Of a stretch of 64,000 nt of DNA, positions 12,795 through 63,171 are shown in pieces (within the stretch, counting starts at the first letter, position 1; each line of letters starts with the position of its first letter). The stretch covers positions 62,001 through 126,000 of the forward strand of contig NC_013131.1 of assembly GCF_000024025.1 (NCBI RefSeq). Direction: 5' to 3'. The translations under genes and the position numbers were made by a program. Source of the stretch: Catenulispora acidiphila DSM 44928. GTDB taxonomy: Bacteria; Actinomycetota; Actinomycetes; Streptomycetales; Catenulisporaceae. Under the pieces are notes generated by a model. The model ran no database searches. It was not told the origin of the DNA and saw nothing but the letters and a program-made list of their open reading frames with translations.

Positions 12795-13577
12795 ATGGAC
12801 ACCCGCTCCCCGATCCAGCGCCTGGCCGCCGCTCCGAACGCCGCCGAGGCGGCGGACACCGCCCGCGAGGCCGTGGACCGCGTGCGCCGGCACAAGGTCC
12901 TGCGCAGCCAGTCGGCGCGCGTCACCGCCGAGTCGCAGCTGCGCGGCGCCCGCGCTTCGGCCGCCCTCGGCTCGCTGAGCGAGGCCGGTACCGACTGGCC
13001 GCTGGAGGAGGTGCGCCGCCGCACCGACCTCGGCGACGAGGACGGTTCCGGACTCCTGCGCGGCGCGCTGCGGATCTCCGGCGAGCTCGGCACGCTCGCC
13101 CCGGTCTGGAAGCGCTCCCCGATCCAGGCGCTGTCGCGGATGCACCTGCTCGCCGCCGCCGGTCACCTTGACCAGGACCGGGTCGGACGGCCGAGCGGCC
13201 CGGAGGCCGCGGTCACCTTGACCACCCTCGCCAACGAGCTGCGCGACCCGGCCGCCGCCGAGGTGCCGGCCGTGGTGGTCGCGGCGGCGGTACACGCCGA
13301 GCTGCTGGTGAACGAGCCGTTCGGCTGGGGCGACGGCCTGCTGGCCCGCGCGGCGTCCCGGCTGATCCTCGCCGACCGCGGCCTGGACCCGCAGTCGCTG
13401 GCGGTGGTCGAGGCCGGGCATGTGGACGTCGGCGTCGAGAAGTATCTGGACGCCGCGCGCGACTACGCGACCGGCACCGAGGAGGGGTTGGCGACCTGGC
13501 TCGGGCTGTATGCGGAAGCGGTCGAGCTCGGCGCGCGCGAGTCGCTGGCGGTGTGCGAAGCGATCATGCGCGGCTGA
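12795..13577 (+). CDS. Degenerate Fic-fold protein (Rv3662c/SCO3559-like)
   Basis: A 260-residue protein of a conserved actinobacterial family often named oxidoreductase or Fic family protein. The region VHAELLVNEPFGWGDGLLAR (about residues 171-190) occupies the place of the Fic motif HPFxDGNGRxxR, but the catalytic His is Glu, the Asn is Asp and the first Arg is Leu, so AMP-transfer is unlikely. N-terminal VTAESQLRGARASAALG and the segment WPLEEVRRRTD are the other conserved blocks. From memory the family includes Rv3662c and SCO3559, whose neighbourhood carries the Ms1/scr3559 RNA. ATG at 12795 is preceded by a -10 at leaderless spacing. Function unknown. Confidence 0.7.
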   Translation: MDTRSPIQRLAAAPNAAEAADTAREAVDRVRRHKVLRSQSARVTAESQLRGARASAALGSLSEAGTDWPLEEVRRRTDLGDEDGSGLLRGALRISGELGTLAPVWKRSPIQALSRMHLLAAAGHLDQDRVGRPSGPEAAVTLTTLANELRDPAAAEVPAVVVAAAVHAELLVNEPFGWGDGLLARAASRLILADRGLDPQSLAVVEAGHVDVGVEKYLDAARDYATGTEEGLATWLGLYAEAVELGARESLAVCEAIMRG

Positions 13578-13653: not shown

Positions 13654-14394
13654 TCAGCCCCTGGCCAGCGTGGTCCCGCCGTTCACGTCCAGTACCACGC
13701 CGGTCGTGAAGCCGTTCCCGGCCAGGAACAGCACCGCTTCGGCGATGTCCTGCGGCTGCCCGACGCGTCCCACAGGGGTCGCGGCAGCCTGCTGCTCCAT
13801 GAACCCGTCGCGGTTCTCACCCAGCGGGTGCCACCAGGCGGTGTCGATCACGCCGGGGGAGACCGCGTTCACCCGAACCGGTGCCAGCTCCGCAGCCAGC
13901 GGGCGGACCGCGGCGTCCAGCGCGCCGTTGGCTGCCGCCAAGGCGGTGGTGCCCGGGAACGCGGCGCGCGAGCTGCCGGCGCCGATGAAGGTCACCGAGG
14001 CGTCCGGGGCGAGGTGCGGCAGCGCCGCCTTCAGTACCCTGAACTGCGCGAACACCTTGCTCTCGAAGCCTTCGCGCAGCGCCTCGTCGGTGAGCTCGGC
14101 CAGCGGGCCCAGCCCGGCCATGCCGCCGCTGACCGCCAGGACGAGGTGGTCGATCTTCGTGTCCGCCGCGGCGAACAGCGCGTCCACGTCCTCCTGGCGG
14201 GTCGCGTCGGACTGGACCACCCGCACCGGGTGGCCGATCCGCTCGGCGGCGGCGTCGAGGCGCTCCTTGGCGCGGCCGGTGATCAGGACATCGGCACCTC
14301 CGCCGGCGAACGCGGCGGCGATCCCCTCGCCGATGCCGTGGCTGGCGCCGATGACGTAAACGGTCTTACCGGTGAACTTCCCCTGGGCGGACAT
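13654..14394 (-). CDS. Atypical SDR-family protein without the catalytic Tyr-Lys pair
   Basis: A 246-residue Rossmann-fold protein of the short-chain dehydrogenase family. The cofactor motif GASHGIGEG is at residues 16-24, and LAVSGGMAG replaces the NNAG motif. At the normal YxxxK position the sequence reads LAAAN (in TTALAAANGAL), so both the tyrosine and lysine needed for proton transfer are absent. The C-terminal RVNAVSPGVIDTAWW block is intact. Other actinobacterial and proteobacterial SDRs with this NGAL variant are known to me, so it is a real subgroup rather than a pseudogene. It is divergent from a TetR gene with two shared operators, which likely controls it. Confidence 0.82.
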   Translation of the reverse strand: MSAQGKFTGKTVYVIGASHGIGEGIAAAFAGGGADVLITGRAKERLDAAAERIGHPVRVVQSDATRQEDVDALFAAADTKIDHLVLAVSGGMAGLGPLAELTDEALREGFESKVFAQFRVLKAALPHLAPDASVTFIGAGSSRAAFPGTTALAAANGALDAAVRPLAAELAPVRVNAVSPGVIDTAWWHPLGENRDGFMEQQAAATPVGRVGQPQDIAEAVLFLAGNGFTTGVVLDVNGGTTLARG

Positions 14395-14490: not shown

Positions 14491-15075
14491 ATGGAGCGCC
14501 CCCACACCGGAAGACGCCGCAACGAGGCGGCCCGTGAGGCGATCATCGACGCCGCGATCGGTCTGCTGCAGGAGGTCGGCTACGAGGGCTTCACGATCGA
14601 GCGCCTGGCCCGCGACGCGGGAGTCGGCAAGCAGACCGTCTACCGCTGGTGGCCCTCGAAGGCCGCGGTCATCGCCGAGGCGGTGGGGACGCGCGCGCAG
14701 CACACCATCCCGCTGCCCGACACCGGTACGCTGGCGGCCGATTTGCGGGAGTTCTTCGAGACCACCTTCCGGCAGTCCGAGGACCCGAAGGTGATCAGTG
14801 AGCTGAAAAGCATGATGGTCGCCTCGATCGAGAATCCCGAGTCGGCGCGCCCCTTCCACGACTTCCTGGCCAGCCGCCGCGCGACCCTGCGGGTCCTGCT
14901 GGAACGCGGGTCGGCCCGCGCCGAGGTCGCCGCCGACGCGGATCTCGACTTCCTCACGGATCTGGCCTACGGCCTGCTCTGGTATCGCGGTCTGGTCGGC
15001 CATCGGCCACTTGACGACGACGCGGCGCGCAAACTCGCCGGCGCACTTGTGGCAGCCGCTGCGGAATCGCAGTAA
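14491..15075 (+). CDS. TetR/AcrR-family regulator
   Basis: A 194-residue repressor. The HTH covers residues 12-58 (AIGLLQEVGYEGFTIERLAR then DAGVGKQTVYRWWPSKAAVI). The C-terminal domain matches the TetR_C_11-like set with HDFLASRRATLRVLLERG. It is divergent from the atypical SDR gene and flanked by two dyads that share the half-site CGTCTCGA, so autoregulation with control of the SDR is the simplest reading. The ATG at 14491 lies at leaderless distance from TAGGCT. A strong perfect hairpin follows the stop. Confidence 0.88.
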   Translation: MERPHTGRRRNEAAREAIIDAAIGLLQEVGYEGFTIERLARDAGVGKQTVYRWWPSKAAVIAEAVGTRAQHTIPLPDTGTLAADLREFFETTFRQSEDPKVISELKSMMVASIENPESARPFHDFLASRRATLRVLLERGSARAEVAADADLDFLTDLAYGLLWYRGLVGHRPLDDDAARKLAGALVAAAAESQ

Positions 15076-15094
15076 TCCCCGCGGAGAATAGGTC

Positions 15095-15123
15095 AGCGGT
15101 GCCGCTGCGCAAGCGGCACCGCT
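15095..15123 (+). terminator. Terminator after tetR
   Basis: Perfect 12-bp stem AGCGGTGCCGCT (15095-15106) / AGCGGCACCGCT (15112-15123) with a 5-nt loop, 20 bp after the tetR stop. Confidence 0.8.
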
Positions 15124-15178
15124 GTTATGAGGGACACCGGGATCGGGTTAACAAGCGTCTGTTTTCCGTAGTCGCCTT

Positions 15179-15380
15179 CCAGGTCCTAGCTGTTACTCTC
15201 CGTCTGCCTGGCTGGCTGGCCCCTTAAGGGGTCGGTCTTTGCGTGGGTTCCCAAAACGATGTCGAGGTCGAGCGGCCTTGTGCCAAACCATTCCTTCTCT
15301 TTGAGTTGGGAGGTCGCCGGGCCTTGCTTTCTTTCTACGACCGATAAAGGGCGATGCCAAGGGCTACTGGCCGGTTTTTA
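15179..15380 (+). ncRNA. Candidate structured non-coding RNA, possibly Ms1/scr3559 (6S-like)
   Basis: The 440-bp gap 15076-15515 holds no convincing gene and is clearly less GC-rich than its surroundings. Within it, CCAG (15179-15182) and TAGC (15187-15190) can pair with CTGG (15367-15370) and GCTA (15363-15366), closing a roughly 190-nt fold with an internal CCCCTTAAGGGG hairpin (15220-15231). The 3' side is followed by CCGG then TTTTT (15375-15379), like a terminator. TTAACA (15148) and TAGTCG (15169) could be its promoter, with a start near 15180. The family of the Fic-like gene 1.6 kb away neighbours the 6S-like Ms1 RNA in mycobacteria and scr3559 in Streptomyces, so that identity is possible. 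Strand and identity are inferences. Confidence 0.35.
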
Positions 15381-15503
15381 CTCGCTGTCGACCGAATGGG
15401 GGATCTACGGCGCCTCACTCTGCACAGGGGTCTCAGCGGTGGTCATCGGTACCGCCCGGAGCCGCTCTGCGGGCTCGATCCACCTCTTGCTCACAGGTCT
15501 CGC

Positions 15504-15509
15504 TAGGGT
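15504..15509 (+). promoter_or_regulatory. Candidate -10 hexamer TAGGGT of the quinone oxidoreductase gene
   Basis: TAGGGT ends 6 nt before the ATG at 15516; no Shine-Dalgarno sequence is present, so the mRNA is predicted to be leaderless. Confidence 0.55.
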
Positions 15510-15515
15510 GAAGTC

Positions 15516-16517
15516 ATGCGCGCCATCACGATCGCCGAGCCGGGCGGACCGGAGCAGTTGGTGTGGACCGAGGTGCCCGATCCGGTCGTCGCGGCCGGCG
15601 AGGTGCTGATCCAGGTCGCCGCGACCGCGGTGAACCGCGCGGACATCTTGCAGCGCAGAGGTTTCTACACGCCCCCTCCGGGAGCCTCGTCCTATCCAGG
15701 GCTGGAGTGCTCCGGACGGGTCGTCGAGGTCGGCGCCGGAGTGAGCGGGTTCGTGCCGGGCGACGAGGTCGTGGCGCTGCTGACCGGCGGCGGGTACGCC
15801 GAGCTGGTCGCGGTGCCCGCCGGGCAGGTCGCGCCGCTGCCGAAGGGCCTGAGCGCGCTGGCCGCCGGCGGTCTGATGGAGACGGTGTGCACCGTCTGGT
15901 CGAACGTCTTCATGCTCGCCGGGCTCCAAGCCGGGCAGACGCTGCTGGTCCACGGCGGCTCCAGCGGCATCGGGACCACCGCGATCCAGCTCGCGCACCA
16001 GCTCGGGGCACGGGTGATCGTCACCGCCGGCACCGCGGCCAAGCTCCGCGCCTGCCGGGACCTCGGCGCCGACGTCGGGGTGAACTACCGCGACGAGGAT
16101 TTCGTGGAGAGGGTTGCCGAGGTCACCGACGGCCAAGGCGTGGATGTGATCCTCGACAACATGGGCGCCGTCTACCTGGACCGCAACGTCCAGGCGCTGG
16201 CGGTGGACGGCCGGCTGGTGATCATCGGTTTGCAGGGCGGGGTCACCGGCGAGGTGAATCTGAACACCCTGCTGCGCAAGCGGGCCGGCATCAGTGCAAC
16301 CACACTGCGTGCGCGGCCGTCAGAAGAGAAGGCGCGGATCGTCGCGGCGGCGCGGGACGCCGTGTGGCCGCTGATCGAACAGGGCCGCTTCCGGGTGGTC
16401 GTGGACCGGGTGCTGCCGGTCGACCGGGCGGCCGAGGCCCACCGGGTGGTCGAGGACAGCGGGCACGTCGGCAAGGTCGTGCTCGACGTGGCGACGGTAC
16501 GCGGCAGCAGCAGCTAA
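15516..16517 (+). CDS. NADPH:quinone oxidoreductase (PIG3-type, zinc-free MDR)
   Basis: A 333-residue medium-chain dehydrogenase/reductase. It has the GroES-like fold followed by a Rossmann domain with HGGSSGIGTTAIQLAHQLGA (residues about 148-167). Segments typical of the PIG3/TP53I3 group are AVNRADILQRRGFY and YPGLECSGRVVEVG. The GHE zinc motif and structural zinc cysteines of alcohol dehydrogenases are absent, consistent with zinc-free quinone reduction. The start is the ATG at 15516 at leaderless spacing from TAGGGT. The Bpa gene follows after 15 nt on the same strand. Confidence 0.9.
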   Translation: MRAITIAEPGGPEQLVWTEVPDPVVAAGEVLIQVAATAVNRADILQRRGFYTPPPGASSYPGLECSGRVVEVGAGVSGFVPGDEVVALLTGGGYAELVAVPAGQVAPLPKGLSALAAGGLMETVCTVWSNVFMLAGLQAGQTLLVHGGSSGIGTTAIQLAHQLGARVIVTAGTAAKLRACRDLGADVGVNYRDEDFVERVAEVTDGQGVDVILDNMGAVYLDRNVQALAVDGRLVIIGLQGGVTGEVNLNTLLRKRAGISATTLRARPSEEKARIVAAARDAVWPLIEQGRFRVVVDRVLPVDRAAEAHRVVEDSGHVGKVVLDVATVRGSSS

Positions 16518-16532
16518 TCGAGGGACGGATAC

Positions 16533-17129
16533 ATGACGGGATTGAACGGCGACATCTTCGGAGCCATGAACATGAGCCTGAACAACGACCCCGACGCCGA
16601 TCACGACGGCGATCTGGCCGGCCGGGTCATCGTGGTGCCGGCCGACGCCGCCGGCGCGCGCGGGGACGACGAGTCCGGCGAGAACCCGATGAACGTCGCC
16701 GAGATGGTCGAGCAGCCCGCCAAGGTGATGCGCATCGGCTCGATGATCAAGCAGCTGCTGGAGGAAGTGCGGGCGGCGCCTCTGGACGAGGCCTCCCGGG
16801 CCCGCCTGCGCGAGATCCACCGCTCCTCGATCGCCGAGCTGGAGAAGGGTCTGGCGCCGGAACTGGTCGCGGAGCTGGAGCGGCTGTCGCTCCCGTTCGC
16901 CGAGGACGAGGTCCCCAGCGAGTCCGAGCTGCGCATCGCCCAGGCGCAGTTAGTCGGCTGGCTGGAAGGGCTGTTCCACGGCATCCAGACCGCTCTGTTC
17001 GCGCAGCAGATGGCGGCGCGGGCGCAGCTGGAGCAGATCCGGCGCGCTTTGCCGCCCGGCTCTGTGCCGCCCGGCATGGCCGACGGCGAGCAGCCGGGCC
17101 GGATCAGCGGCGCGGGACCGTACCTGTAG
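16533..17129 (+). CDS. bpa: Bacterial proteasome activator (Bpa/PafE family)
   Basis: A 198-residue ring-forming, ATP-independent activator that opens the 20S proteasome gate and delivers unfolded substrates. Residues about 50-175 match the family (MRIGSMIKQLLEEVRAAPLD, LREIHRSSIAELEKGL, LVGWLEGLFHGIQTALFAQQ), an all-helical bundle. The protein ends in GPYL, the place of the C-terminal GQYL (HbYX-like) motif that docks into proteasome alpha-ring pockets. The acidic, disordered N-terminal 50 residues are usual. The ATG at 16533 follows AGGGA by 7 nt. No proteasome genes are in the window. The last 26 bp overlap the convergent phosphotransferase gene. Confidence 0.92.
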   Translation: MTGLNGDIFGAMNMSLNNDPDADHDGDLAGRVIVVPADAAGARGDDESGENPMNVAEMVEQPAKVMRIGSMIKQLLEEVRAAPLDEASRARLREIHRSSIAELEKGLAPELVAELERLSLPFAEDEVPSESELRIAQAQLVGWLEGLFHGIQTALFAQQMAARAQLEQIRRALPPGSVPPGMADGEQPGRISGAGPYL

Positions 17130-62667: not shown

Positions 62668-63171
62668 CTACTCCCCGGAGTAATCCCGGCCGCGCTCGTC
62701 CAGTTCCTTGAGCAGGGACTGGAGTTCGCCGCGCACGTAGTCCCGGGTCGCGACCTCGCCGACCGCCATCCGCAGCGAGGCGATCTCCCGGGTCAGGTAC
62801 TCCATCGTCGCGAACGACAGCTCCTCGCGGGCCTTGTCCTCGGCGATCTGCACCTTGTCCCGCTCGGCCTGCCGGTTCTGCGCCAGCAGGATCAGCGGCG
62901 CGGCATACGCGGCCTGCGTGGAGAACGCCAGGTTCAGCAGGATGAAGGGGTAGGGGTCCCAGCGGATCGCCTTGGTGACCACCAGGATGTTCAGGGCGAT
63001 CCAGATCACGACGATCAGGGACTGGATGAACAGGTACCGCGCGGTGCCGAAGAAGCGCGCGATGGTCTCCGAGACCCGGCCGAAGGCGTCCGGGTCGAAC
63101 GACGGCTTCAGCGAGACCTGCCGGCGGCCGCGCGGCTGGTCCAGCCGCGGCGGGATGTATTCGCGTGCCAT
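62668..63171 (-). CDS. DUF1003 membrane protein
   Basis: A 167-residue protein with two predicted membrane segments (about residues 46-66 LFIQSLIVVIWIALNILVV and 76-96 PFILLNLAFSTQAAYAAPLI), flanked by the DUF1003 hallmark ARFFGTARYLF and ILLAQNRQAERDK, then a long coiled coil (about 100-160). In actinobacteria it often sits next to MgtE-N/CBS proteins, as here: its ATG follows directly after the neighbour's TAG stop (TAGATG). The pair may act in magnesium or membrane-related control; this is inference. Confidence 0.88.
   Translation of the reverse strand: MAREYIPPRLDQPRGRRQVSLKPSFDPDAFGRVSETIARFFGTARYLFIQSLIVVIWIALNILVVTKAIRWDPYPFILLNLAFSTQAAYAAPLILLAQNRQAERDKVQIAEDKAREELSFATMEYLTREIASLRMAVGEVATRDYVRGELQSLLKELDERGRDYSGE

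Follow-up and report, generated by a model that had tools for sequence, protein, structure and literature searches.

A predicted Ms1-type RNA gene displaced from its usual neighbours in Catenulispora

Organization of the locus

The analysed stretch of DNA, referred to here as the window, is 64,000 nucleotides long and comprises bases 62001-126000 of one 10,467,782-base contig of Catenulispora acidiphila DSM 44928. The intergenic gap considered here (15076-15515) is flanked by a TetR-family regulator gene (14491-15075, plus strand) and a zinc-binding-dehydrogenase-type oxidoreductase gene (15516-16517, plus strand). A gene for the bacterial proteasome activator Bpa (PF10759) follows 15 bases after the oxidoreductase gene, and the pair spans 15516-17129. 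On the TetR side, a short-chain dehydrogenase (SDR) gene (13654-14394, minus strand) is preceded by a Fic-like gene of the SCO3559 type (12798-13577, plus strand), whose protein gave no Pfam match at 0.001. The gap is AT-richer than its surroundings, as originally noted, with a GC content of 0.585-0.625 in 200-base windows over 15000-15499 and of 0.66-0.77 in most neighbouring windows.

On the minus strand of this gap, at 15325-15094, an RNA of the Ms1 type and of about 232 nt is predicted from a profile (nhmmer) match, a covariance model match and an alignment of the genus. Its 5' end is an estimate, placed about 7 bases beyond the -10 element. The predicted RNA passes the lower bound of the interval proposed in the original prediction (15124) and ends well before the upper one (15515). 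It is convergent with the TetR gene and divergent from the oxidoreductase gene.

The putative promoter is sigma-70-like and consists of a -35 element TTGGCA (15355-15360, minus strand), the same in all ten members of the genus, and a -10 element TAGAAA (15332-15337, minus strand), present in nine of them and replaced by TAAAAA in the tenth. They are separated by a spacer of 17 bases, variable in sequence among genus members. At the other end, a hairpin resembling an intrinsic terminator, with a 13-pair stem and a weak T tail, occupies 15094-15124 (minus strand), with 18 bases between it and the TetR stop codon. Its stem co-varies among 31 sequences, and Streptomyces-type sequences likewise carry a terminator hairpin followed by a weak T tail. 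The core of the RNA comprises a 5' strand, GGGAACCCACGCA (15240-15252, minus strand), in which ACCCACGC is invariant in 31/31 sequences, and a 3' strand, GACGCTTGTTAACCCGAT (15142-15159, minus strand), which pairs with the ACCCACGC region. A genus-specific core of 22 bases was found exactly in six records, five of them from Catenulispora (C. rubra, C. pinistramenti and C. pinisilvae included) and one from a Catenulisporales bacterium.

A structured RNA gene had been expected in this gap, and the suspected Ms1/scr3559 kind is borne out by the profile and the covariance model; its strand and ends differ from the proposal, as do the promoter, the closing helix and the terminator. The promoter-like pair had been placed on the plus strand, while the promoter identified here reads on the minus strand, at 15332-15360. 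The strings suggested to close the structure do exist (CCAG at 15179, TAGC at 15187, GCTA at 15363 and CTGG at 15367), but their right arm lies upstream of the minus-strand promoter and thus outside the RNA. The same applies to the TTTTT run at 15375-15379, which is present but lies upstream of that promoter.

Detection of the Ms1-type gene

According to PMC9130861, Ms1 sits between a HAD-IB hydrolase gene and a gene annotated as oxidoreductase, Fic or otherwise. We searched 41 genomes with the HAD-IB profile TIGR01490 and obtained loci from 30 of them, of which nine belong to the genus and 21 do not. All 21 non-genus loci have the HAD gene, then a gap, and then a convergent homologue of the Fic-like gene of the window; this homologue was not found in the nine genus HAD loci, which span up to about 1.5 kb per side. 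Sixteen aligned gaps, all from one genus (g4) and referred to here as Streptomyces-type, were used to build an nhmmer profile. In these sequences the distance from the end of the -10 element to the end of the hairpin is 224-234 nt, and about 228 nt separate the published ends of S. coelicolor Ms1 (PMC9130861). The published 5' RACE primer for S. coelicolor Ms1 matches one training sequence exactly (L041) and two loci with one mismatch (L030, L032), and no locus was matched by the 3' RACE primer with up to three mismatches allowed. Synteny, length and the 5' primer match support the view that the gaps used for training hold the published Ms1.

With this profile, the only match in the window (E <= 10) is at 15382-15094 on the minus strand, with an E value of 2.8e-9 and covering model positions 15-294 of 309. 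At E 1 the profile missed three of the ten genus loci (L008, L009 and L012), all of which were found by the covariance model. DNA similarity of the gap itself is confined to the genus (10/10 genus genomes, 0/31 outside), and only the profile built from syntenic gaps bridges the distance beyond it.

For the covariance model, R1, we used 21 Ms1 sequences, none of them from the genus; the model has 231 positions. It matched the sequences of all ten genus members at full length with 48.6-63.0 bits, the match in the window being 15331-15096 on the minus strand (56.1 bits); the next-best matches in the same search scored 13.6 bits (locus L011) and 7.6 bits (window 63084-63166). The set of 41 whole genomes consists of the 21 that supplied the model, the ten of the genus and ten that are neither. 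R1 matched all 41, and each genus genome once, always at this locus. In the genome of the window the single match (E <= 0.1) lies at C1:77096-77331, minus strand, with an E value of 1.8e-11. Mean column identity of 94% among the ten genus sequences, combined with this single match in a 10.47-Mb genome by a model that contains no genus sequence, shows that the feature is beyond chance.

A search of 98 genomes of the class with R1 at E 0.001, under stricter filters with which some genes may be missed, gave matches in 41, two of which (G016 and G018) are in the training set. Relative to the nearest listed HAD-IB gene, 26 of these 41 matches lie within 0.6 kb and five at 0.6-3 kb; at most five share its contig at a distance above 20 kb, the genome of the window included, and at most five are on another contig. 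R1 holds no information on HAD-IB, so the 26 matches near that gene support its use as an Ms1 detector. The remaining 15 of the 41, that of Catenulispora included, have the nearest listed HAD-IB gene farther off than 0.6 kb or on a different contig. In four genomes (G093, G123, G056 and G069) the closest HAD-IB gene listed for the same contig is 56-115 kb from the match, and these are perhaps further displaced Ms1 genes.

Rfam gave no match at gathering scores over the whole window, and a permissive search of 14950-15650 returned two weak matches, both far under their gathering scores. The Ms1 sequences of two relatives (loci L016 and L018) were equally unmatched, and the silence of Rfam is thus uninformative on Ms1. 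The absence of a covariance hit, named in the original prediction as refuting, was observed for Rfam but carries no weight. A 6S-like RNA was also suggested for this gap. RF00013 was absent from 41/41 genomes, that of the window included, while four of 14 control genomes were matched (under stricter filters, with some weak matches lost), and this candidate was rejected.

Secondary structure

The alignment of 31 sequences supports a 34-pair structure made of a 6S-like rod, a small internal hairpin and the terminator. Of its 1049 cells 93.0% are paired, compared with 30-44% in slid versions of the same structure. Two-sided changes occur at 17 of the 34 pairs and in 107 cells, and none of 500 shuffles reached either value; eleven of the 34 pairs belong to the terminator, and the counted structure was picked from the same alignments, which favours it. 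One covariation measure, further pair types, was not above shuffles (32 against 31.7). Within the genus alone there is little variation, and two-sided change was seen at none of 60 pairs.

Folding of single sequences gives a different picture. The stretch 15165-15420 hardly folds better than its shuffles, if at all (z -0.58 on the plus strand, +1.34 on the minus strand). The whole RNA gave a z of -0.98 and its body without the terminator +1.81, compared with -2.58 for one Streptomyces-type body. In all ten genus sequences the conserved rod lies 7-19 kcal/mol above the minimum-energy fold. Of 31 pairs predicted from sequences outside the genus, four failed in 10/10 genus sequences, two of them among the six pairs of the 5' hairpin. 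The pair of alignment columns 113-260 forms in 4/8 and that of 114-259 in 2/10 of them.

Displacement from the HAD-IB neighbourhood

The Fic-like protein of the window is 41-57% identical to its homologues in 21 relatives (46% and 57% in two relatives), and protein comparison identifies its gene as a homologue of the gene flanking Ms1, which PMC9130861 describes as annotated "Fic" or "oxidoreductase". The original prediction had connected the two through the family of this nearby gene. The homology holds, but the genes do not adjoin: the Fic-like gene is about 1.5 kb from the predicted RNA, and the SDR and TetR genes intervene. The order Fic-like, SDR, TetR, Ms1 is kept in 9/9 genus genomes, the tenth, on a 3.2-kb contig, being left out. 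The HAD-IB gene is even farther, 21,273 bases away (DISPLACEMENT: HAD-IB gene C1:55221-55823, Ms1 C1:77096-77331, genome of the window). The Ms1 of Catenulispora thus lies outside the HAD-IB/Fic gap by which Ms1 is usually located. We treat this neighbourhood as a published search criterion rather than a defining property of Ms1, because 15 of the 41 class matches, this one included, are away from a listed HAD-IB gene. As in Streptomyces-type loci, Ms1 is convergent with the Fic-like gene.

PMC9130861 reports Catenulispora as having retained the neighbours of Ms1 while lacking any intergenic region able to contain it. Syntenous gaps are described there as too short in Catenulispora and other groups (20-100 nt outside its Corynebacterium example), and such absences are treated as possible losses. 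The short gaps agree with those seen here, about 84 bases behind the HAD gene and 76 behind the Fic-like one. In contrast, the predicted gene is present elsewhere in 10/10 genus genomes, so that by sequence comparison Ms1 is displaced, not lost. The absence given in PMC9130861 is corrected accordingly: a predicted conserved gene with one detectable copy per genome is found in Catenulispora. Among the literature matches listed, to which the supplementary tables of the survey do not belong, there was no report of Ms1 in this genus, and PMC9130861 was the only paper naming Catenulispora among the matches listed of one Ms1 search.

The position relative to dnaA (C1:553) was also considered. The predicted gene is 77 kb from it, on the minus strand, and would be transcribed towards it. 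Location near the origin and transcription towards it are reported for Mycobacterium, Nocardia and Rhodococcus in PMC9130861, and we count this agreement in favour of the Ms1 identity.

Evaluation of alternative readings

We compared the conservation of the RNA with that of its surroundings in nine genus members. Identity to the window is 0.916 in the RNA, 0.849 in the promoter stretch and 0.739 in the remaining gap, and 0.870, 0.864 and 0.887 in the TetR gene, the oxidoreductase gene and the covered part of the Bpa gene, respectively. The value of 0.675 for the SDR gene was set aside, since protein identity of 86-93% indicates that the alignment is unreliable at this end. The RNA is therefore conserved at least as well as the well-aligned neighbouring genes. 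These values bear on the reading that the sequence descends from Ms1 and lost its function after displacement. The unfavoured rod in single-sequence folding would fit such decay, as would the R1 scores, the ten genus genomes having the ten lowest best scores among the 41. Still, the RNA exceeds both the rest of the gap and the well-aligned adjacent genes in identity, promoter and terminator are kept in 10/10 genus members, and we consider loss of function quite improbable.

Even less probable is a leader or RNA on the plus strand that belongs to the oxidoreductase gene, although this gene starts at 15516, right at the end of the gap, and the plus strand is T-rich, with an AT skew of -0.25 to -0.30. 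The conserved block is over by about 15400, the stretch 15362-15515 has an identity of only 0.739, below that of the RNA and promoter, and both the profile and the model match the minus strand. A short coding gene on the plus strand (15259-15609) has the least chance of the three. Its frame of 116 amino acids is open in the window, but in three of the ten genus members in-frame stops interrupt it before 15515, and its second half, beyond about 15400, is less conserved; the earlier remark that the gap has no good reading frame stands. We thus favour an Ms1 (scr3559-type) RNA gene of Catenulispora at about 15325-15094 on the minus strand, with its own sigma-70-like promoter, a terminator hairpin and, by homology, binding to the RNA polymerase core, and we assign this reading a probability of about 0.93. 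The analysis shows homology, conserved pairing, the promoter and terminator, the single detectable copy per genome and the displaced position. The length of about 232 nt, the promoter and the terminator, all predicted sequence features, agree with those expected of Ms1 RNAs (230-300 nt).

Comparison with known RNAs and proposed function

One of the closest known RNAs is S. coelicolor Ms1/scr3559 (PMC9130861), shared features being a near full-length profile match, similar length (about 228 vs about 232 nt), many common rod pairs, the layout of promoter and terminator, and convergence with the same flanking gene family. Differences are evident in the R1 scores, with at least 200 bits in 22 of 26 Streptomyces-type genomes (many of them training sequences) and 48.6-63.0 bits in Catenulispora, where the 5' hairpin is rebuilt, HAD-IB is not adjacent and the SDR and TetR genes separate Ms1 from the Fic-like gene. 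Four other members of family f1 (L014, L015, L018 and L042), which we take as the Actinospicaceae of PMC9130861, belong to the same family as Catenulispora but lie outside the genus, and in three of the four the Ms1 shares the core GGGAACCCACGC with that of Catenulispora. Unlike the Catenulispora gene, theirs remains within the usual HAD/Fic-like gap, on the strand opposite to HAD and inverted with respect to Streptomyces-type loci.

M. smegmatis Ms1 / MTS2823 (PMC4191392) is longer (about 300 nt vs about 232 nt predicted here) and was compared without alignment, the likeness being in the 6S-like rod and the proposed mechanism. It is reported there to bind sigma-free core polymerase, with a central bubble important for binding, and to rise about 130-fold in stationary phase. 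For S. coelicolor scr3559 in stationary phase, enrichment of about 1250-fold on RNA polymerase and about 45-fold on HrdB is given in PMC11077062. This source also describes CoRP RNA, a polymerase-bound RNA of Corynebacterium, a group reported without Ms1; it differs in being 516 nt long and adjoining tRNA genes, with close homologues reported only from Corynebacterium. 6S RNA (RF00013) resembles Catenulispora Ms1 in its open-promoter-like rod, but binds the sigma holoenzyme, and Catenulispora Ms1 has no RF00013 match.

For transcription, polymerase binding and physiology of Catenulispora Ms1 we infer, by homology to M. smegmatis and S. coelicolor, the following course. Transcription would start at the gene's own sigma-70-like promoter and stop at the terminator hairpin, with which the convergent TetR gene ends as well. 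The RNA can adopt a structure of three elements: a 5' hairpin, a long 6S-like rod interrupted by unpaired stretches, and the hairpin of the terminator. In stationary phase it may hold the sigma-free polymerase core until displaced by sigma. A gene of this kind in Catenulispora fits the proposal, made in PMC11077062, that each bacterial species has one type of abundant polymerase-binding RNA. We also suggest, as a tentative scenario with the odds rather against it, that Ms1 left its ancestral neighbours, had its 5' hairpin rebuilt and came to lie in one divergent promoter region together with that of the oxidoreductase-Bpa pair, that it may have changed in timing or in the form of polymerase it prefers, and that "losses" elsewhere may be displacements too. 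The R1 model finds Ms1 without synteny, and since for 15 of the 41 class matches no listed HAD-IB gene occurs within 0.6 kb, other reported absences are now testable.

In addition, inspection of the HAD-IB loci revealed 6C RNA (RF01066) just upstream of the HAD-IB gene at two of them (L022, 1183-1258, and L018, 1131-1207, both on the minus strand). A third locus (L016, 1275-1351, minus strand) has it in the same place, with a score under the gathering value. 6C RNA is still beside the HAD-IB gene in the genome of the window, from which Ms1 has moved away.
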